DNA from: Parvularia atlantis
Taxonomy: Eukaryota > Opisthokonta > Rotosphaerida
Assembly: GCA_943704415.1 (NCBI GenBank)
Contig: CALSCO010001151.1
Coordinates: 1-20,539, forward strand
Reading direction: 5' to 3'
Length of the DNA: 20,539 nucleotides
The notes beneath the pieces are model-generated. The model was not told where the DNA came from. It saw only the letters and a program-made list of their open reading frames with translations, and made no database searches. Both the position numbers and the translations under genes were made by a program. Below, in pieces: positions 3,280 through 17,936 of the stretch. Each line of letters starts with the position of its first letter. The first letter of the stretch is position 1.

Positions 3280-6200
3280 ATGGCGCAGGGCAAGCACGAC
3301 CCGTCTGTCAAGCAGTACCACGTCTTCGTCAGGTGCCCCCCCTCTATCCACCCACCCCCTGGACGCGCACGCTCACGGCCGCGCACAGCTACCGCGTCGC
3401 CACTGACGCCGCGCTGGCCGAGCGGCTGTGCGACAAGCTGCAGCAGCTGGAGATCGAGCGCGAGGCAAACCTGCGGTGCGCGCTCGTCGCGTCTGACACG
3501 CGCCTGAGACGCGCCTGACACGCCGCCGCGACGCGCAGTATCAAGTGCTTCCTCGACAAGCAGGCGCGGCGCCTTTTTGGGCGCATCGGACGGCGCCGCT
3601 GACGTGCGCGCGCGCCCCGGGCAGGACCTCAAGTTTGGCGAGAACTGGGAGGAGGGCTTCCTGGCGGGCCTCGTCGGCTCGTGCCTCTTCGTGCCGCTGT
3701 TCTCGGAGGTGCCGCCGCCTCGCCTCGCCTCCGATGGCCCTCATCGCCATCGGCGCGCATCGCAGGCGTCGCTCCAGTACCTCGTCGACTCGCGCCCCGG
3801 CGTCAAGGACAACTGCCTGCTCGAGTACGAAGTGCGGATGAGGACGCGGACGCGCCACCCGATCTGGACGCCGCTCACGCCGCGGCCGCGCAGACCGCGC
3901 TGCGCCTGTTCAACGAGGAGAAGATCGACATCCTCCCGGTCTTTGTCGGCTCGTCGCCCGGCGGCGTCTACAAGAAGTTCAACGGCTTTGGCTTCCCGTG
4001 CGCGCCGGCGAGCGCGGCTGCTGCTGCGCTGCTCACGCACCGCGCAGCTTTCCAGAGCACAGCTCGGCAACCAACCCGAGCGGCACGATCCGCCAAACGC
4101 TCATGACCTTCTTCAAACTGCAGGGCATCTTCCTCAACCCGGACGAAGTGCGTGCGCGGCCGCTCTGTGTCGTGCTGATTGCATGTGTGCAGCTCAAGGA
4201 CAAGCTCGGCGTGGTGCAGCACCGCCTGTCGATCGAGACCTGGCCGCGCTTCCGCAACGGCTGGGCCAACACGGCCGAGCTCGGTGTGCGGCCACTCGCA
4301 CGCGCGTGCGCACAGCCCATGCTGACTGCGCGCAAGGCCCCGAGCGCATGCACCAGTGCGTGCAGTGCGGCGACGAATACATGGAGTCGCAGAACGGCGA
4401 GGGCCACTGCAGCTTCCACCAGGCCGGCCACGAAAACTCGACATACTACTGCTGCAACCAGTTGCGGGCGCTGCGCCTGTGCGCGCCCTCGGCGCTCACC
4501 CGTGCGCACGCACCAGGAAGCACGACCCGCCGCGTCTTTACCAGACGCCCGCGCCGTTCTTCCCCAAGCCCGGCCAGCCGAACCGGCCGCCCGCGATGCA
4601 AGAGGTCCCCGGCGCGCGGTGCGCTCTCGTGCTGGCCAGCTCACCGATCGCTGACTGCACGGGCGCGCGCAGCGACGCCATTGCCAAGTACAAGGTGCCC
4701 GGCTGCACGCGCAAGCGCCACCGTTCGTCGCACCACTACGTGCGCGCCGCATGCGCACTCGCGCACCGACGCGCCGCTGAGCCCGTGCGCGTGTGCAGGA
4801 CTACCCGTACGAGAACTGGTACAAGTGGGCCAACTCGATCACCAACTACACCGACACGCGCGACGTCTGGGCCGAGGTCGACGCGCCCAACCTCAACACG
4901 GGCAAGCCGCTGTACTTTGAGGTGCACTCGCGACCACACCGTGTCGTGCGCTCACGCCGTCGACAGATGGGCAAGGTACTCAAGGGCATCGGCAAGGGCG
5001 GCATGTACATCCACATGAGTGGCAGCAAGGACCGCAAGCGCTTCTTCAAGGTGTTTGACGCCGAGGCGATCAACCAGATCGAGTCACTGGCCATCGCCAA
5101 GGCGCTGCGCAATGCCGAGCGCGACGTGGCCGCAACGGGCTCGTTCAACGTGCGCGCCCCAGTCGCACTGCGCGTGCGCGCTCGCTGACCGCCGCCCGCG
5201 CCAGCCCAACAAGCTCGTGCAGCTCGACGGCGAGACGTTTGAGAACGACAACGGCAAGGCGCAGTTTGTGTGGGACATCGTCAACGACAAGGTGCGGGCT
5301 GCGTGTGCCGTGAGTATGCGCTCACGCTCATTGGCCGCACGTTCAGCTCGCCGGCATCACGGCGACGCTCACGAGCCCGACGGCGCCGCAGCCGACGGCC
5401 GTGCGCGTGCTCTTCGACGTCGAGCCCGAGATCCGCAAGGCGCGCACGACACGCGGCTTGCCGTGCGCGTGTGCTGACCGCGCTCGGCGGGCCGCAGGTC
5501 GACGTCAAGGTGCTCTCAGTGGCCAAGCTTACCGAGAAGGTGCCCTCGCGGCCGTACGTCCTGCCGACCGCGCCGTGGTACAAGGGCGAGTTTGCGCCGG
5601 TGATCGAGACGCGCGCGGCGCAGAAGGTGCCGCCGTTCGTCGCACTTGCGCGCGCGCCGCTGACGAAACGGGGAGCAGGACTTCAAGACGTATGGCAACC
5701 TCAACGGCCGCATGAAGCTCAACTCGATCGAATGCAACGAGGCGAGTGTGCTGCCTGCGCGGGCATGGTCCGCAGCTGACGCGCGCACGCTCAGTGGCGC
5801 AGCAGCGGCTCGGACATCTTCATGGCCAAGGTCACGTTCGTCAACATAGACGCGACGACGCCCATCAGCCTCGTGGACGTGGCGTGCCAGTACGCGCTCA
5901 TGCCAGTCAACAACAACGCGTCGGCTGCGGGTGCGTGCTGCGCCCTTATGCTGTCGTGCCTGACGCGCGCGCTTGCTGCACAGAGGTCGAGTGGAAGACG
6001 TTCGAGTCGGTCACGGCGACGGTCTTCCACGGCGAGGAGGACAAGAAGATCCCGCTGCCGCAGAAGGTCGACGCGAGCGGCACGCTCACGCTTGGCCTGC
6101 GTCTCAAGGCGTCCGTGCCTGAGCTGCCCAACTGCGACGCGATCTACAACTACTCGATGGTGCGCACTGCCCGCGACCTTGCCGTTCCTCGTCTTACGTC

Positions 6201-7217
6201 GGGCGCAGCTAGCGCGCACGGGCCCGATCCTCATCCGCGTCACGGTCGAAGCGGCTGACGGCCGCACGGCGTCGCTCCCGATCGAGTGGGTCAACACGAT
6301 GCCACTCGTGCACCTGAGCCCGTCCGAGGGCGAGGAGTTTGTGGTCGCGGACGACAAGACCATGTACACGTACGAGAAGGTCTCGGTCAAGCGCCAGAGC
6401 AGTCCCGTCGGCGTCACAGTCTACGGCTTCAACCGGAGCCACAAGCTCGAGGAGAAGGAGCTGCGCGAGGCCGCGTTCCGCGCCAGCCAGGCGGCCGACC
6501 CGCGCGCCTCGCCCTTCCCGGCCGACGCGACCGCGCCGGCCACGGCCCTCGTGCGCTCGCTCGGCCTGCCGTGGCTGACGGCCGCGACGTACCACCGCCT
6601 CGAGGGCCTGTGCAATGACCGCGCGGGCTTCTCGAGCGAGGTTGGCGTGCTCGTGGACCCGGCGTGCCTGCGCGCCGTCGGCGTCATGGTCGCGCTCGTC
6701 TCGCCCACGGTCAGCGTGATCCAGCACTTTGCCCTGCCGCTCTACGGCGAGACGGCGACGACGCAGGGTGTGCGCTGCCGTCGCGCTCGATAGTGGTGGC
6801 TGACAGACAGCCGGCCTCGCAGACACGCCGCACTTCACCAGCGCCCTCGCCGTGCCCGCTGGCTTCAAGGAGAAGCACGCCGAGCCGCCGCGCAAGATCC
6901 GCCCCGTTGGCCTGGTTGCGTGGCTCGGCGACGGCACCGCGCCCGCTACGTCGTCGCCCGCGACAGCCGGCGCGGCGGGCGGCAGTGGCGCGTCGCTCGC
7001 GCAGATCGAGGCCGCTCTCGCAGCCGTGCTCGACCGGCGCATGTCAGCGCTCGAGAACAAGCTGCAGGCGCTCGAGGCGTCGCTGACGGCGCGGCTGGAC
7101 CGCATCGAGGCCAGCGTTGCCGGCGCGAGCTCGTCGGCGTCGTCCGTCTCGAGCGGCGCCGAGGCGGCCGCGGAGGGCACCAAGTCGGTCCGCAAGGGCT
7201 TTTTCAGCCGTCGCTGA
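3280..7217 (+). CDS. TIR domain protein with CHORD-like zinc module, beta-rich middle and C-terminal coiled coil (21 exons, 950 aa)
   Basis: Exons: 3280-3332, 3389-3475, 3539-3563, 3625-3708, 3766-3831, 3894-3997, 4048-4147, 4193-4283, 4337-4460, 4517-4618, 4673-4739, 4799-4921, 4967-5149, 5205-5291, 5347-5439, 5498-5626, 5679-5747, 5795-5930, 5984-6159, 6209-6767, 6823-7217. Introns 3 and 15 are GC-AG. The TIR domain is at 13-118: YHVFVSYR (strand A), IKCFLDKQDLKFGENW (strand B and BB loop), LFVPLFSE, CLLEYETAL with E103 at the NADase glutamate position, and ILPVFVG. A Cys/His module at 211-295 (C211, C214, C228, H231, C242, C243, C290, H295) matches the CHORD ligand order. Residues 302-850 are beta-rich and unrecognised. 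Residues near 880-930 form a heptad-like coiled coil (IEAALAAVLDRRMSALENKL), followed by a Ser/Ala tail. There is no signal peptide or membrane span. I infer a cytosolic signalling or defence protein; the domain calls are from motifs only. Confidence 0.85.
3564..3624 (+). other. GC-AG intron 3 of the TIR gene
   Basis: The intron begins AG|GCGCGG and ends GGGCAG. Removing 61 nt joins FLDKQ to DLKFGENW in frame, exactly restoring the TIR BB-loop region. No GT donor gives this join. Confidence 0.8.
5440..5497 (+). other. GC-AG intron 15 of the TIR gene
   Basis: The intron begins AAG|GCGCGC and ends GCCGCAG, 58 nt long. It joins PEIRK to VDVKVLS in frame. The GT dinucleotides inside the interval give the wrong phase or introns shorter than 40 nt. 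Confidence 0.7.
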
Positions 7218-7393: not shown

Positions 7394-9340
7394 ATGGCGG
7401 GTGGTCTCGTGACCGTCGTCGGCCTCATCGTCGGCGTCTTCGCGCTCGCGGCGGGCGCGGCGGGCGCTTCGGGCGCGACGGCGGCGACGACGACGCGCTT
7501 CGTGCTGCGCCCAGCGACTGCGCCCCGCGTCGATGCGCTCGCGGCCGGCTGCGCCGACGTGCGCCGCATCATCGGCAGCGACGACGACGCACCGCTGTTC
7601 GAGGTCGCGCACTGGGGGGGGACCAATCGCGGCGACGTGCGGCTCACGACGGGCGGCACAGGCGTTCGGCACGGCCGCGGACGAGGCGCATCTCGCCGCG
7701 ATGGGCTTCGAGATCGTCTCGCGCGATGCCGGCCACCCGCTCAAGATCGCGTGCGTCCGCTCTGATCGGCGCTTTGATCGCGCCTGATTGCCCTGACGCA
7801 GACCGCCCGCCGGCTACCAGGACCCGCAGCAGCTGCTCGCGGCCGTCAGCGCCCTCGCCACGGCGTACCCCGGCCGCGCGCGCGTCGTCGACCTGACCGA
7901 TCTGTACGGCCCCGGCCCGACGTTCGAGGGCAACAACATCCGCGCGATCAAGATCGCCGTGCGTCGCGCGCTCTGTGCGGTTGCGGCAGCGTGCCTGATA
8001 TGCTCGCGCGTGGTCAGGCCGACGTCGATGACGAGACCAAGCCGGCGCTCGTGCTCGTCTCGAACCACCACGCTCGCGAGCTCGTCACGCCCGAGATTGC
8101 CGTCAACATCTCGTCGCGGCTCGTGCTCGAGTGTGCGTGCCGCGCTCTCTGCCTGCGGTCGCACCTCACAACCGCGTGCGTGCGGCAGACGAGAGCGACC
8201 CGCAGATCAAGCGCATCGTCGACACGTACCAAATCTACGTGCTCTGGGTCCGCCCGCCGCTTGCACTCGCTCATCCGCGCTGATCCCCCCCTCTGCGCAG
8301 ACGCTCAACCCGGACGGCCTCGACTACGTCTGGAACGTGGACTCGTACTGGCGCAAGAACCGCACGCCCAACCGCGACGGCTCGCACGGCGTCGACCTGA
8401 ACCGCAACGTGCGCGGGTCGCCCTTGCAGTGCTCGCTTGTGCTCAACGTCGTGCAGTACCCGATCGGCTGGGACTTTTCGTGCGCTGGCTCGAGTGTGCC
8501 CTCGTCCGACACGTACCGGGGCCCGAGCGCCGCGTCCGAGGTCGAGGTGCAGACGATGATGGGTGCGTCCGCGGCTGGTTGTTGCCGACAGCTGACGCGC
8601 GCCCGTACGCAGCTTTCCAGGAGGCGATCCGCCCGGTCAAGGTGCTCGACCTGCACAGCTATGCGCGCGAGGTGCGCGTCATTTACGGCGACTGCGCGAG
8701 CCTGCCCGCGACCGTCGACAACTACTTCCAGGTGACGCCGCGCCTTGGCGTCTCGTCGTGGCTCACGCGCACGCGTGCAGGACGTCGCGTCGACAGTGGC
8801 GGACCTGATCGGCTATGTTCAAGCACGCTCGTGTTGCATGGGCGGTAACATCCACTTTGCGTACCACAACCAGGGCAGCCTCACGTTCCTGATCGAGACC
8901 GCGACCGCGTTCCAGCCGCCGGTGCGCTCGTTGCACTCGGTGCGGCCGAGCGCACAGCTGACGCGCGCACACACGCTCGAGTGCAGGAGTCGGCTATGCG
9001 CGCCGAGCTCGCCCGCGTCGCACCCGGCATCCTGTTCTTTATGGACCTGCCCACCCCGGCGTCGGGCCGCGTGACGGACGCGCGCACGGGCGCCCCGGTC
9101 GAGGCTTTCTTCGACATCCCCTCGCTGCGCTTCGAGCTGGACGAGCAGGTGCGCGTCACCATGTGGCTCATGCACAGCTGACTACGCCCACAGCGCCCGT
9201 CCAACCCCAAGACCGGCGCGTACCACCTGTGGCTGCCCGCGGGCACGTACAACGTCACGGTGAGCGTTCCCGGCGGCGGCGCGACGTCGGTGCTGCTCAC
9301 GGCCAGCGCGAGCGGCGCCGTGCGTGACATCGCCGTGTGA
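7394..9340 (+). CDS. Secreted M14 zinc carboxypeptidase with C-terminal transthyretin-like domain (11 exons, 470 aa)
   Basis: Exons 7394-7603, 7662-7750, 7802-7958, 8018-8132, 8189-8247, 8301-8408, 8457-8562, 8613-8731, 8781-8921, 8987-9148 and 9194-9340. Residues 1-28 look like a signal peptide (hydrophobic run GLIVGVFALAAGAAG). The zinc ligands are H170 and E173 in NHHARE and H296 in LDLHSYA. The substrate carboxylate site is seen as TLNPDG, WRKNR and DLNRNYPIGWD. The catalytic glutamate is E360 in LTFLIETA. The C-terminal part (SGRVTDARTGAPV, then TGAYHLWLPAGTYNVTV) resembles the carboxypeptidase regulatory, transthyretin-like domain of the CPD/CPE branch. Residues 29-140 may be a propeptide. 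Expected activity: removal of C-terminal residues from peptides in the secretory pathway, lysosome or outside the cell. Residue specificity is not readable here. The 5' end of intron 5 could be 8239 or 8248; 8248 keeps the family motif YVL. Confidence 0.88.
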
Positions 9341-9533: not shown

Positions 9534-11892
9534 ATGCCACGTGTCGTCGCTCACTCGCCCCGGCAGATCGCAATCCTCGGCGGCGGGCAGCTCGGGCGGA
9601 TGCTCGCGCTGGCGGCGGTGCCGCTGGGCCTCGCCGTGCACGTGTTGGACCCGGCCGGGCCCGAGTGCCCCGCGGCGATCGCGGCGACGTCGGCGATCAA
9701 GGGCGACTTCAAGGCGCGCGCGACGCGGGCGCGATGCGGCTGATCGGGGCGGCTCGTGCTGACGCGGCGCACGGGGTGATCGCAGAAGAAGGACGAGGTG
9801 CTCGCGTTCGTCGAGAAGGTGCGGCCGGACGTGCTCACGGTCGAGATCGAGCACGTCGATGTGGACGCGCTCGAGGCCGTGCAGAGCAAATGCAGTGCGG
9901 TCGCGCCTGACCGCCGCGTGCGCGCGCGGCTCACCGGGCGACGCGCCAGAGATCGCCGTGCAGCCCGAGCCGGCCACGATCCGCGTGATCCAGGACAAGC
10001 TGCTGCAGAAGCAGCACCTCTCGTGCGGCCCCCTTTGCGCGGCGTAGATCGCGTCGCTGAGCTGGTCGACAGCGCGCACGGGCTCGCCGTGCCGCGCTAC
10101 AAGGCCGTGAGCGGCGTCGACGACATCAAGGCTGTCTTCGATGACTACGGCTCGCAGCTCGTGCTCAAGTCGCGCACGCTCGCGTACGACGGGCGCGGCA
10201 ACGCGGTCGTGAAGGACATTCAGAGTGCACCTTGTGCCGCGCCTCTCGCTGCTCGCCTGACCGCGCGTGCCGCATGCGCAGACGTCCACGCCGCGCTCAA
10301 GAGCCTCGTCAGCGCCGAGGTCTACGTCGAGGAGTTTGTCGAGTTCGAGATGGAGCTCGCGGTCATGGTCGCGCGCAGCACCAAGGGCGAGCTCGTCTCG
10401 CACCCGTGCGTGCAGACGATCCAGAAGGCGCGCCCGCGTACTCTCAGCGCACACTGGCTGAGCCGCGCGTGGTGCAGGATAGCATCTGCCACACGGTCAT
10501 CGCGCCGGCGCAGGTCGACGGGCCGATCGCAGCCAAGGCGCGCGAGCTGGCCGAGGCGGCCGTGGCGACGCTCAAGGGCGCGGGCATCTTTGGCGTGGAG
10601 CTGTTCATGCTCAAGAACGGTGCGCTTCTCCGCAGAGGCTGGATCGCGCTCACTCGCGCGGGGGGGGGGGGGGGGGGGGGGGGGGCGCAGGCTCGCTGCT
10701 GATCAACGAGATTGCGCCGCGCGTGCACAACTCGGGCCACTACACGATCGAGGCGTGCCACACAAGCCAGTTTGAGCAGCACCTGCGCGCGATTCTTGGC
10801 CTGCCGCTCGGCGACGCGTCGATGCGCGTGCGTTGGCGCTCCCTGCGTTGCTGAGGTGCATGGCTGACGCGCGCGCTCGAACAGGTCCCAGCTGCTGTCA
10901 TGCTCAACATTCTCGGCAACGGCACGCTTGGCCAGACGTTCGAGCCGTGCATGCGCAGTCTGCGCGTGCCCGGTGCGCACCTTACATGGCAGCGGCTCTG
11001 CTGACGCGCGGCGTCGCAGGCGCGTCGATGCACTGGTACAACAAGGGCGAGGCGCGCGCGGGGCGCAAGATGGGCCACATCACCGTGACGGGCGCGACGA
11101 TGGAGCGGGTGTTTGAGCGGCTGCACCAGATCACGCTCGTGGACAACCGCGTGTCGCCGAGCCTGCCGCAGGTGGGCATCATTATGGGCAGCGACTCGGA
11201 CCTGCCCGTCATGTCGGCCGCGGCCAGTGCGTGTGCCTTGTGGCGGCCTTGCGGCGGCCTTGCCCGTGCGTCTCACCTGCGTTGCGCGCAGAGGTCCTCA
11301 CCGACTTTAAGGTGCCGTTCGAGATCCACGTCGTGTCGGCGCACCGCACGCCGCGGCGCATGTTTGAGTACGCCTCCACCGCGCACAAGCGCAGCCTCAA
11401 GGTCATCATCGCTGGTGCGGCCGTCGTGTCGCGCGGCTGTCGCTCTCTGACTGTGGCGCCGCAGGCGCGGGCGGGGCCGCACACCTGCCGGGGATGGTCG
11501 CGTCGCTCACACCGCTGCCGGTGATCGGCGTCCCCGTGCCGCTCAAGCACCTCGACGGCGTCGACTCGCTGTACTCGATCGTCCAGGTGCGCCCGCGTGC
11601 GCGTGTATCTGCAGCACGCTGAGCCGCCTGCAGATGCCGCGCGGCGTGCCCGTCGCCGCCGTCGCAATCGACAACGCGGCCAACGCGGGCCTGCTGGCCG
11701 TGCGCATGCTCGGCGCGTTTGAGCCCGAGTGCGTCGTTGTCACGCCGTGTGAGCGCGCGCGTGCGCGCCTTCTGATGTGCGCGCGCACGCAGGCTGCTGC
11801 AGCAGATGGTCGAGTACCAGAAGCGTCTCGAGGACGACGTGCTCAACAAGGATCAGAAGCTGCAGGACGTCGGCTGGCAGGCCTACAAGTGA
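9534..11892 (+). CDS. ADE2: Phosphoribosylaminoimidazole carboxylase, PurK-PurE fusion (13 exons, 557 aa)
   Basis: This enzyme carries out AIR carboxylation in de novo purine synthesis. Exons 9534-9713, 9786-9894, 9950-10022, 10073-10224, 10282-10427, 10478-10619, 10691-10827, 10885-10972, 11020-11226, 11292-11414, 11465-11586, 11634-11728 and 11793-11892. The PurK half has [13 protein letters not shown] at the N terminus, [26 protein letters not shown], the ATP-grasp segment [19 protein letters not shown], and [16 protein letters not shown]. The PurE half starts near [14 protein letters not shown] and continues with [30 protein letters not shown] and PVIGVPV. The length is close to yeast Ade2 (571 aa). 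Introns 1 and 5 are GC-AG; intron 6 carries a G26 run. In-frame ATGs at 9402, 9426 and 9480 could give longer products (601, 593 and 575 aa); 9534 is chosen because homology starts there. The gene faces HADH convergently across 64 nt. Confidence 0.92.
9714..9785 (+). other. GC-AG intron 1 of ADE2
   Basis: The intron begins AAG|GCGCGC and ends TCGCAG, 72 nt long, with phase preserved. No GT donor fits near the end of the GDFK-coding exon. Confidence 0.7.
10428..10477 (+). other. GC-AG intron 5 of ADE2
   Basis: The intron begins AAG|GCGCGC and ends GGTGCAG, 50 nt long. It joins CVQTIQK to [11 protein letters not shown], a well-conserved PurK segment, in the correct phase. The nearest GT (10438) gives the wrong phase. 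Confidence 0.85.
10660..10685 (+). repeat. G26 homopolymer in ADE2 intron 6
   Basis: Twenty-six consecutive G residues sit five bases before the 3' splice site of intron 10620-10690. The intron (71 nt) is longer than its neighbours by about the length of the run. Confidence 0.9.
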
Positions 11893-11956: not shown

Positions 11957-13312
11957 TCACTTGGGCACCTTGTTGCCTTTCGAGTCGTACTTGTAGAAGC
12001 CCTCGCCCGACTTGCGGCCGAGCTTGCCATCCGCGACGAGCTTCGAGAGCTGTGCGCAGGATCGCGCATGAGCACGGTGCAGCCAGGCGCCCGCGCCCGC
12101 GCACGCGCACCATCGGCACGGGCTTGAACATCGGCTCGGACGGGAAGCGCTTGCTCCAGCCGTCGAGGATGAACTTGGTCGTGTCGAGGCCAACGTAGTC
12201 GCTCAGCGTGAACGGGCCCATGGGGTAGCCCGCGCCGAGCATCATCGCCGTGTCGATGTCCTCGGCCGACGCGTCACCGCGCTCGAGCATGCGCACGGCC
12301 TCGGCCATGTACGGCACCAGCAGGCGGTTGACGATAAAGCCGGGCGTGTCCTTGCACTCGACCGTCGTCTTACCGACGGCTGCGTGGCGGACGCGGGGGG
12401 CCGTCAGCGAGCGGCGCGGCGCAGCGGGCCCTCGCGCACACCCTTGCCGAACGCGACGAGCGCCTCGAACGTCGCCGGGCTCGTGTGGCTCGTCTTGATC
12501 ACCTCGACGAGCTTCATCACGGGCACGGGGTTGAAGAAGTGCAGGCCGCCGAAGCGGTCCTGGCGCTTGGTGATCGCGCCGATGTCGGCGATCGAGAGCG
12601 ACGACGTGTTGGACGCGAAGATGGTGTGGGCCGGCGCGGCCTGCATCGCGTCCGGTCAGTGTGCGACCACAACGAGCGCGGCCGCACCTCGTCCAGCTTG
12701 GCAAACAGGCGCTGCTTCACCTCGAGGTTCTCGACAATCGCTTCGACGACGAGGTCCGACGCGGCGCTCGCGCTCTCGGCCGACGTGCTCGTGGTGATGT
12801 TGGCCATCGTGCTGTCGACGTACTTTTTGGCGTCGTCGGGCTGCGACTCGTGACGGCGTCAGTGCGCGCACAGAGCGCATCGAGCGACCAGCAGCACCTT
12901 GCCGTCAAACTGCTTGTTGGCCACGCGCTTGATGCTCTGCGCGATGCGCTCCGTGCCGGTCTTGAGCAGCTCGTTGTTCATGTCGACCATGAACACCTGC
13001 TTGTCGTGCGCTCGCACGGTGAGGCGTGCAAGCGACGAGCAGCAGACGAGAGGCAGACGAGAGAGACAAGCGATGAGCGGCGAGCAGCACGACCACAGCA
13101 CAGCACCAGACGAGAGGCAGACGACCGTCACGAGCTCGAGAAGGAAGATCACCACCGAGGCTGCTGCTCGCTCGCACCTTGTGGCCCGACGCAGCCGCGA
13201 CGGCGACGATGCCGCTGCCCATGAGGCCCGAGCCGATGACGGTCACGGTCTTGATCTTGTAGCCGCCCGCGGCGGTGGCGAGGGCGCGGCGCAGCAGCAG
13301 CGACGAGGCCAT
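11957..13312 (-). CDS. HADH: Mitochondrial short-chain 3-hydroxyacyl-CoA dehydrogenase (6 exons, 315 aa)
   Basis: Exons in order 13312-13178, 12996-12898, 12840-12688, 12640-12442, 12379-12111 and 12049-11957. The product oxidises L-3-hydroxyacyl-CoA with NAD in fatty-acid beta-oxidation. The N terminus [15 protein letters not shown] is Arg-rich, lacks acidic residues and looks like a mitochondrial presequence. The Rossmann motif [13 protein letters not shown] follows. Then come [24 protein letters not shown], the catalytic His in [66 protein letters not shown], and the C-terminal GKKTGEGFYKY-like sequence [11 protein letters not shown]. The length matches the human enzyme (about 314 aa). The first intron, 13177-12997, is 181 nt, much longer than any other here. 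The gene is divergent from the 13.6-16.1 kb genes and convergent with ADE2. Confidence 0.94.
13044..13124 (+). repeat. Purine-rich repeats within HADH intron 1
   Basis: The 17-nt word AGACGAGAGGCAGACGA occurs at 13044-13060 and again at 13108-13124, with related GAGCAGCA and GACGAG words between. All lie inside the 181-nt first intron of HADH. Confidence 0.8.
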
Positions 13313-16270: not shown

Positions 16271-16457
16271 ATTGCAGGTGGCTCGCACGGCAAACACCTA
16301 CGAAGCGTACATGGTGCAGTAGCATGCCCAGCGGGTGGTATGGGATGTCGCTAGGCGTGATGCAGGTGTGGCGGCGGATTGGTAGCCAGGTGTAGTGAGA
16401 AGGGGGAGAGGCACTTTCGGGTGTGGGTGCCGTGTGCCACGCGCCTTCCCGTTCGCG
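16271..16457. promoter_or_regulatory. SF3B4 upstream region with GGCACTTT element
   Basis: These 187 nt lie between the tRNA 5' end and the SF3B4 ATG. GGCACTTT at 16410-16417, 41 nt before the ATG, matches GGCACTTT at 88-95 in the MLH3 leader (16 nt before that ATG) and its complement at 3088-3095. Its role as a shared promoter or leader element is inference. Confidence 0.4.
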
Positions 16458-17936
16458 ATGGCGTCGCAGCTGGTCGGCACGCAGCAGGCGATGCACGAGC
16501 GCAACCAGGGTGCGTCGTGCGCATCGGGGCCGATCGCGCTCATGCGATGCACGGCGCGGCAGATGCGACGCTGTACGTCGGCGGCCTGGACGCCCAGGTC
16601 ACGTCGGAGCTGCTGTGGGAGCTGTTTGTGCAGGCCGGGCCCGTCGGTGCGCCCGGGCGCCGTGCGGCACGCCAACGCGACCGACGGCGCTGACGGGAGC
16701 GAACGGCACGTCCGCGCAGTCAACATCCACGTGCCCAAGGACCGCGTCACGTCGATGCACCAGGGCTTTGCCTTTGTCGAGTTTATGACGGAGGAGGACG
16801 CCGACTACGCGTGCCGGTGCGCGCCTCGCGCGTGTGCGCCTCGCGCGTGTGCTGATCGGGATGGCGCGCAGCATCATGAACATGGTCAAGCTGTTTGGCC
16901 GGCCCATCCGCGTCAACAAGGCCAACGCCAACAAGCAGCGCGACGTCGAGGCCGAGGTGCATGCGCGACGTGCTTCGTCGCCATGCGCACTGACTTGCTC
17001 GCCGTCGCGAAGGCGTACTCGGCCAACCTGTTCATCGGCAACCTCGACATGGACGTGGACGAGAAGATGCTGTACGACACCTTCAGCGCGTTCGGCACAA
17101 TCGTTCAGGTGCACGGCCGGCGCGTGCGCGTGCACGAGGCGCTGACGTCGCGCGCAGACGCCGAGGGTCCAGCGTGACCCGGACTCGGGCCTGTCGCGCG
17201 GCTTTGGCTTCGTCGTCTTCGACTCGTTCGAGGTGCGTCTGTCCGTCGAGTGCGAACGACGCTGATCGACGCGCGCGCGCAGGCCGCCGACGCGGCCATC
17301 GAGGCCATGAACGGGCAGTACCTGGCCAACAAGGCCATCACCGTCGCGTACGCGTTCAAAAAGGACGCCAAGGGCGAGCGGCACGGCTCGGCCAAGGGTG
17401 CGCCTGCCGTGCACGGCCGGCGGCGCGTGCTCAGCCTCGCCCGCCGCAGACCGCGCGCTCGCCGCCCAGTTTAAGAAGGACAAGGACGGCTGTGCGTCAC
17501 GGCCTATCTCACTCGTGCCGCGCGTTGCTCACGCCCCGTCGCGCCGCACGCAGCGCGCGTGCTCAATATCGCCGCTAACATCATGGCCGGCACGGCCAGC
17601 AGCGGCTTTTACGGTGTCGCCGGCGCGCCCGGGCAGCAAGCCGCCCCGATCACGCCGCGCACCGTCGTGCTGCCGCCCATGTCGATGCCCGGCGTGCCGC
17701 CCGTCGGCGTCCCGCAGCAGATGCAGCAGATGCAGCAGATGCAGCAGATGCAGCAGATGCAGCAGCCCCCGCCGCTGCCGTTCCTGCCGCCGGCGCTCCC
17801 TGGCCTGCCGGGCGTGCCGGGCATGCCCGGGTACCCGCCGGGCATCAACCTCATGTCGATCCCGCCGCCCCTGCCGTTCAACGCCGTCGCAGGCGCCGCG
17901 TGGCCGCCGAACCTGCCGCCTCCACCTCAGCATTAG
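16458..17936 (+). CDS. SF3B4: Splicing factor 3B subunit 4, U2 snRNP protein SAP49 (9 exons, 342 aa)
   Basis: Exons 16458-16509, 16563-16646, 16720-16816, 16872-16956, 17013-17108, 17158-17232, 17283-17397, 17450-17491 and 17554-17936. The start ATG gives a short N terminus ending HERNQ, as in human SF3B4 (ISERNQ). RRM1 has RNP2 LYVGGL and RNP1 QGFAFVEF, with [20 protein letters not shown] and [13 protein letters not shown]2 has RNP2 LFIGNL and RNP1 RGFGFVVF, with [15 protein letters not shown] and [25 protein letters not shown] then KGERHGS. The tail is Pro/Met-rich with (MQQ)5 and is shorter than the human tail. In the SF3b complex the protein binds pre-mRNA near the branch site during A-complex formation. 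Introns 3 and 4 are each set by phase and by alignment to the RRM1/RRM2 linker. Confidence 0.95.
17715..17765 (+). repeat. 9-bp tandem repeat coding (MQQ)5 in SF3B4
   Basis: Five perfect ATGCAGCAG units (17721-17765), preceded by two CAG codons, encode a Met/Gln repeat in the proline-rich tail of SF3B4. Confidence 0.95.

Follow-up and report, generated by a model that had tools for sequence, protein, structure and literature searches.

A conserved eukaryotic TIR protein family with a CHORD-like zinc module that lacks the Hsp90-contact signature

A gene on contig CALSCO010001151.1 of Parvularia atlantis (contig 290 of a 16.25-Mb assembly; 69.7% GC, with introns that mark it as eukaryotic) is predicted to encode a single protein in which a TIR domain is followed by a CHORD-like zinc module, a region rich in beta strands, and a coiled coil at the C terminus (positions 3280 to 7217, + strand, of the 20,539-nucleotide stretch analyzed in full here, hereafter the window). 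This is a known TIR domain and a CHORD-derived module in an undescribed combination; no description of a TIR-CHORD protein was found by title, abstract start, or term among the open-licence PMC papers listed, one of which (PMC5776081, on Hsp90-Sgt1-Rar1) mentions both domains, in agreement with the original prediction, made from the DNA letters, which knew of no such fusion. We consider it probable that the protein represents a conserved eukaryotic TIR family acting as NAD+-cleaving enzymes (NADases), with a CHORD-derived zinc joint devoid of the Hsp90-binding face, a beta-rich sensor, and a C-terminal coiled coil.

Splicing of the genomic + strand yielded 21 exons that form one open frame of 954 amino acids plus a stop; the introns (18 GT-AG and 2 GC-AG) are 40 to 63 bases long, and all 20 joins are in frame. 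The original prediction had located the protein at 3280 to 4739. The TIR and Cys/His exons found there were indeed joined in frame, but the interval covers only exons 1 to 11, and 10 further exons follow downstream, up to 7217. The 954-amino-acid extent is supported by relatives that align along the chain and are 821 to 1,086 amino acids long, the exceptions being the longer P0013 (1,426) and two shorter proteins, P0020 (760; flagged as incomplete) and P0021 (463). A protein search of the contigs for further copies in the genome matched contig 290 alone (18 exon matches).

Two protein searches provided 23 distinct proteins; scoring was limited to the 7,990 and 7,997 candidates, respectively, with the most words in common, and the family may therefore be larger. 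In 19 of the 23, the C-x2-C with which the module starts comes after a TIR, while the remaining four (P0015, P0016, P0022, and P0023) have the TIR without it. Fifteen of the 19 come from chytrids, and the others are from Monosiga brevicollis, the EukProt source “Rmarinus” (read here as Rhodelphis marinus), a JGI record, and a source labeled “lgn.” The genera named were Polychytrium, Chytriomyces, Phlyctochytrium, Physocladia, Nowakowskiella, Entophlyctis, Podochytrium, Zopfochytrium, Cladochytrium, and Rhizoclosmatium, all of which we take to be chytrid fungi. The idea of one protist polypeptide with both modules was right about the single chain and understated the rest: the architecture, which it had been suggested to seek in other protists, recurs across other eukaryotes as a conserved family whose found members are mostly chytrid.

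For alignment A1, the window protein was combined with 14 of the 16 first-search matches, selected by similarity along the chain (P0015 and P0016 were excluded because they had only the TIR in common). The part C-terminal to the module could be aligned as well, if only weakly in places (mean column identity, 25% in A1), so that the TIR-module-C-terminal architecture looks like one inherited unit. In the tree, the 15 chytrid rows grouped together (97/97); the window protein fell outside this group, its long branch lying next to Rmarinus, a pairing for which the program warned of possible artifact and from which we claim no placement. The Monosiga protein, P0013, carries PWWP domains before its TIR, perhaps from two genes joined in its gene model. 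As for a prokaryotic or viral source, tblastn revealed no relative in genome contigs scanned with A2 (two patterns, 77 matches) or in viral contigs scanned with A7 (one pattern, 5 matches), both being weak evidence. A search with residues 222 to 480 of P0002 recovered P0002 alone among 737 candidates, despite the existence of homologous members, and is uninformative on TIR-less relatives.

The TIR domain (residues 15 to 124, exons 1 to 6; 3322 to 3950, +) was borne out by a Pfam search of the spliced protein, in which TIR_2 (PF13676) scored 37.3 bits against a curated cutoff of 28 (E = 4.5e-9); at E ≤ 10, this search returned TIR families only, with neither NB-ARC nor LRR among them. Glu103 (codon 3823 to 3825, +) lies at the position of the catalytic Glu of NADase TIRs, where it would serve the same role: it is invariant in the 15 rows of A1, and both flax L6 and Cat1 have a Glu aligned with it. 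A looser D..E motif occurs in 24 of 24 TIR proteins, 7 of which make up TIR set A6. The domain is of the kind found in SARM1 and plant resistance proteins and probably cleaves NAD+ upon the assembly of several copies. The genome has four other TIR_2 matches (C136, C130, C263, and C552), beside which CHORD-like modules were not sought; this count is a lower bound because the same search missed the window's own TIR.

The CHORD-like module extends from C211 to H295 (exons 9 to 11; 4357 to 4721, +). In the spliced protein, the eight Cys/His residues stand exactly where, and in the CHORD order in which, they had been predicted (C211, C214, C228, H231, C242, C243, C290, and H295), with the spacing C-x2-C-x13-C-x2-H-x10-CC-x46-C-x4-H, and the chain contains one such module. 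The complete ligand order, C C C H CC C H, was found in 17 of the 20 proteins with a C-x2-C start (16 of 19 from the databases and the window protein), the set being incomplete in P0007, P0012, and P0014. This pattern is more than chance because it is conserved in relatives chosen for whole-chain similarity rather than for the motif; C211, V212, Q213, and C214 are invariant in all 15 rows of A1. The 17 full modules, which are predicted to bind zinc, all keep x13, C-x2-H, and the last C-x4-H. The RAR1/CHORDC1 spacing as a whole (C-x4-C, x13, x2, x14, CC, x15, C-x4-H) is not reproduced: the first pair is x2 in all 17, the distance from H to CC is x14 in 8, and that from CC to the next C is x15 in none, being instead 5 to 8 residues in 14 modules, 14 in Monosiga, 46 in the window protein, and 85 in P0001. 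By eye, the two longest inserts are both Pro rich. The individual matches to RAR1/CHORDC1 noted originally (C214-C228, C228-H231, CC, and C290-H295) stand, as do the two deviations noted with them (the CxxC first pair and the longer Pro-rich stretch), whereas the overall spacing differs. Even the x13 is x15 and x16 in the two CHORDs encoded by a gene on contig 500 of the same genome.

Two details of splicing touch the module. Intron 9 was placed at the donor GTTGCG, which fits the relatives' sequence after the CC pair; this placement is uncertain, as a second donor, GTGCGC, read 18 bases further on, could also serve, adding six residues after the pair and affecting no ligand. Exon 10 (4517 to 4618, +; 102 bases, in frame) contributes the bulk of the Pro-rich insert that separates the CC pair from the last Cys. 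Its skipping would, by reading, give CC-x12-C, close to the 15 of CHORD, and alternative splicing is conceivable.

Whether the module is kin to CHORD was answered differently by different methods. PF04968 gave no match at E ≤ 10 to the window protein or to the module alone, and only 4 of 15 A1 members were listed, the best (P0002; 15.7 bits, E = 0.024) falling short of the curated cutoff of 24.6 bits; plain Pfam CHORD membership was rejected for that reason. The likeness itself held, with sequence-profile, profile-profile, and module fold searches all ranking CHORD first. A profile of 14 homologous modules against the PDB had CHORDC1 (2yrt, 2.9e-5) and RAR1 (2xcm, 0.027) as its top two matches, with C2H2 fingers lower (1x6e, 0.069). 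The profile-profile comparison that the original prediction had proposed gave a match by hhalign (E = 1.3e-8, the CHORD side comprising 4 sequences only), and Foldseek placed CHORD structures at ranks 1 and 2, with weak E-values (0.45 and 0.84) from a low-confidence, zinc-free module model of mean predicted local distance difference test score 64. Of the 16 full-ligand database modules, set A3 comprises 14 and set A7 comprises 15 (both lack P0001, with its long insert, and A3 also lacks P0005); neither set includes the three incomplete modules or that of the window protein. By profile methods, then, the module is homologous to CHORD, and the best reading of these sequences is that it descends from CHORD, or has a common ancestor with it, and has kept the ligands of both zinc sites. 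An independently evolved zinc finger that converged on the CHORD ligand order would better suit the C-x2-C first pair, the short C-terminal loop, the subthreshold PF04968 scores, and the presence of C2H2 fingers in the ranking, yet it sits poorly with CHORD taking the first two places in the PDB profile search and the first in the fold search. It also sits poorly with decoys in which the ligands were fixed: 0 of 500 reached the score for each of three CHORDs, pointing to similarity beyond Cys/His, and we regard convergence as distinctly unlikely. Two points do weigh against a CHORD-derived joint without an Hsp90 face: 20 of 500 decoys equaled the score for the fourth CHORD, as convergence would allow, and Hsp90 binding has been proposed as general among CHORDs (PMC2935968).

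That paper gives the zinc ligands of RAR1 CHORD II as C159, C164, C178, and H218 at one site and H181, C196, C197, and C213 at the other and includes F187, H188, D189, W194, F204, F207, and M208 in its Hsp90 face (PMC2935968). The corresponding contact signature (FH[DE], a Trp two residues before CC, and EF..F after CC) was present in all 4 CHORDs checked, two of them from the contig 500 gene, and in 0 of 17 modules, which makes an Hsp90/SGT1 link unlikely for these sequences; the connection to Hsp90, SGT1, and nucleotide-binding leucine-rich repeat (NLR) receptors implied by the original prediction was not upheld, and an Hsp90 adaptor was rejected on the absence of the contact residues from every module. 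If the module were a functional CHORD, recruiting Hsp90 together with SGT1 to its own TIR as a built-in co-chaperone, this would explain the eight ligands in CHORD order and the best profile and module-fold matches, but we hold it to be highly improbable given the missing signature, a CC-C loop (bearer of part of the Hsp90 patch) of 5 to 8 residues in 14 of 17 modules rather than 15, and the presence in the same genome of another protein, which carries two PF04968 CHORDs. Doubt of another kind attaches to the TIR, which might be a nonenzymatic scaffold for a signaling assembly, the protein then being an adaptor. According to the abstract of PMC7075850, TIRs are most commonly signaling units and less commonly NAD-degrading enzymes; still, a scaffold is unlikely here because the Glu at the NADase position is invariant and the nearest profile and fold matches are NADase TIRs. 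A wrong join of two adjacent genes, one with the TIR exons and the other with the zinc exons, is an extremely slim prospect: the gene model for this organism comes from genomic sequence, but 20 of 20 joins are in frame, and the same domain order recurs within one protein in 19 database proteins of other sources. The contig 500 gene, for its part, has three PF04968 exon matches across its two CHORDs (best, 85.7 bits), and the stretch after them weakly resembles the SGT1 CS domain (phmmer E = 0.56).

Behind the module lies a beta-rich region (exons 12 to part of 21; 4799 to 6949, +, from the relatives' alignment, the end being approximate). It consists mostly of strands in the P0003 model, where it spans ~430 residues, and is longer in the window protein. 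A coiled-coil-like helix closes the chain (6990 to 7214, +, with approximate boundaries), its position transferred from the P0003 model, which has its terminal helix at residues 788 to 820. When the whole P0003 model was searched with Foldseek, the non-TIR rows included arrestins and factor XIII (root mean square deviation [rmsd], 13 to 33) as well as 1tza (rmsd, 7.6; template modeling [TM] score, 0.52 of target); these rows hint at beta-sandwiches in the region without identifying its fold. Insect-toxin chains, the top rows by E-value, were dismissed as chance (rmsd > 25 and TM scores ≤ 0.10).

Because of this layout (an enzyme-type TIR, a zinc module, a beta-rich region, and a C-terminal helix), we propose an oligomeric NADase, presumably cytosolic and regulated by its own chain. 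The N-terminal TIR is followed by a helix and then by the zinc module; the beta-rich region would be the sensing or target-binding part, and the C-terminal coiled coil would set the oligomeric state. Target binding by the beta-rich part would gather the TIRs and so lead to NAD+ cleavage, with the zinc module acting as a rigid joint or protein-docking surface between sensor and TIR and most likely not as an Hsp90 adaptor.

In organisms ranging from bacteria to plants and animals, TIR enzymes act as effectors of immunity and cell death; to our knowledge, those of zoosporic fungi and protists are little known. The conserved family, in which a TIR protein has a CHORD-type module of its own, offers a testable enzyme, some of its host organisms (chytrids and Monosiga) being in culture, and the CHORD ligand set and Hsp90 binding, usually taken together, are here separate. 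A much bolder reading, which we offer as speculation and think doubtful, is that the family is an ancient eukaryotic immune or cell-death NADase whose TIR-CHORD fusion arose independently of, or long before, the plant RAR1-TIR partnership, with a CHORD copy freed from Hsp90 now serving as the joint between a beta-sandwich sensor and the enzyme.

The rest of the window encodes genes of other kinds. Upstream lies a MutL/PMS-like mismatch repair gene (15 to 2977, +), whose first open frame contains HATPase_c and a later frame MutL_C. Downstream are a zinc carboxypeptidase (7797 to 8735, +; Peptidase_M14, 9.7e-18); ATP-grasp, PurK_C, and the start of AIRC (below its cutoff) in the order of a fused PurK-PurE (ADE2-type) enzyme (9780 to 11447, +); a 3-hydroxyacyl-CoA dehydrogenase NAD-binding domain (12407 to 12655, -; 2.3e-25); and an RRM protein (16386 to 17936, +; RRM_1, 9.1e-14) whose sequence and Pro/Met-rich tail resemble those of splicing factor SF3B4.

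Among known systems, the CHORDs of RAR1 and CHORDC1/Morgana are alike in ligand order, x13, C-x2-H, CC, and C-x4-H and are the top profile and module-fold matches. They differ in having C-x4-C (C-x2-C in the family), a CC-C distance of 15 (5 to 8 in 14 of 17 modules), and the Hsp90 signature, and they come in pairs, whereas the TIR family has a single module behind the TIR. In SARM1, the TIR is C-terminal and is preceded by ARM and SAM domains; compared with it and with Caenorhabditis elegans TIR-1, the window protein has its TIR at the N terminus, partnered by the zinc module and the beta-rich region. The TIRs of plant resistance proteins (flax L6, RPP1, and RUN1) match the window family in profile and fold, but the NB-ARC/LRR part of those proteins was not matched in the window protein, and RAR1 acts on them as a separate chain (PMC2935968). 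Choanoflagellate TIR partners named in the available part of PMC6040629 are Ank, Arm, SH2, and kinase, with CHORD not among them, the Kinase TIRs being one such type; P0016 (with a kinase), P0015 (with SH2), and P0022 were recovered here as TIR relatives, and these, like P0023, are unlike the window family in having no C-x2-C module. A precedent in layout, compared here by its published description, is Rex3/REXO1, a DEDDh nuclease with a KIX domain and no TIR; conversely, the window protein, with only TIR families in Pfam at E ≤ 10, shows no DEDDh exonuclease beside its module. There, too, a lone CHORD-type module adjoins an enzyme domain and was recognized by structure comparison (PMC12129344), and the TIR family would be the second case of such an arrangement after the Rex3 nuclease.
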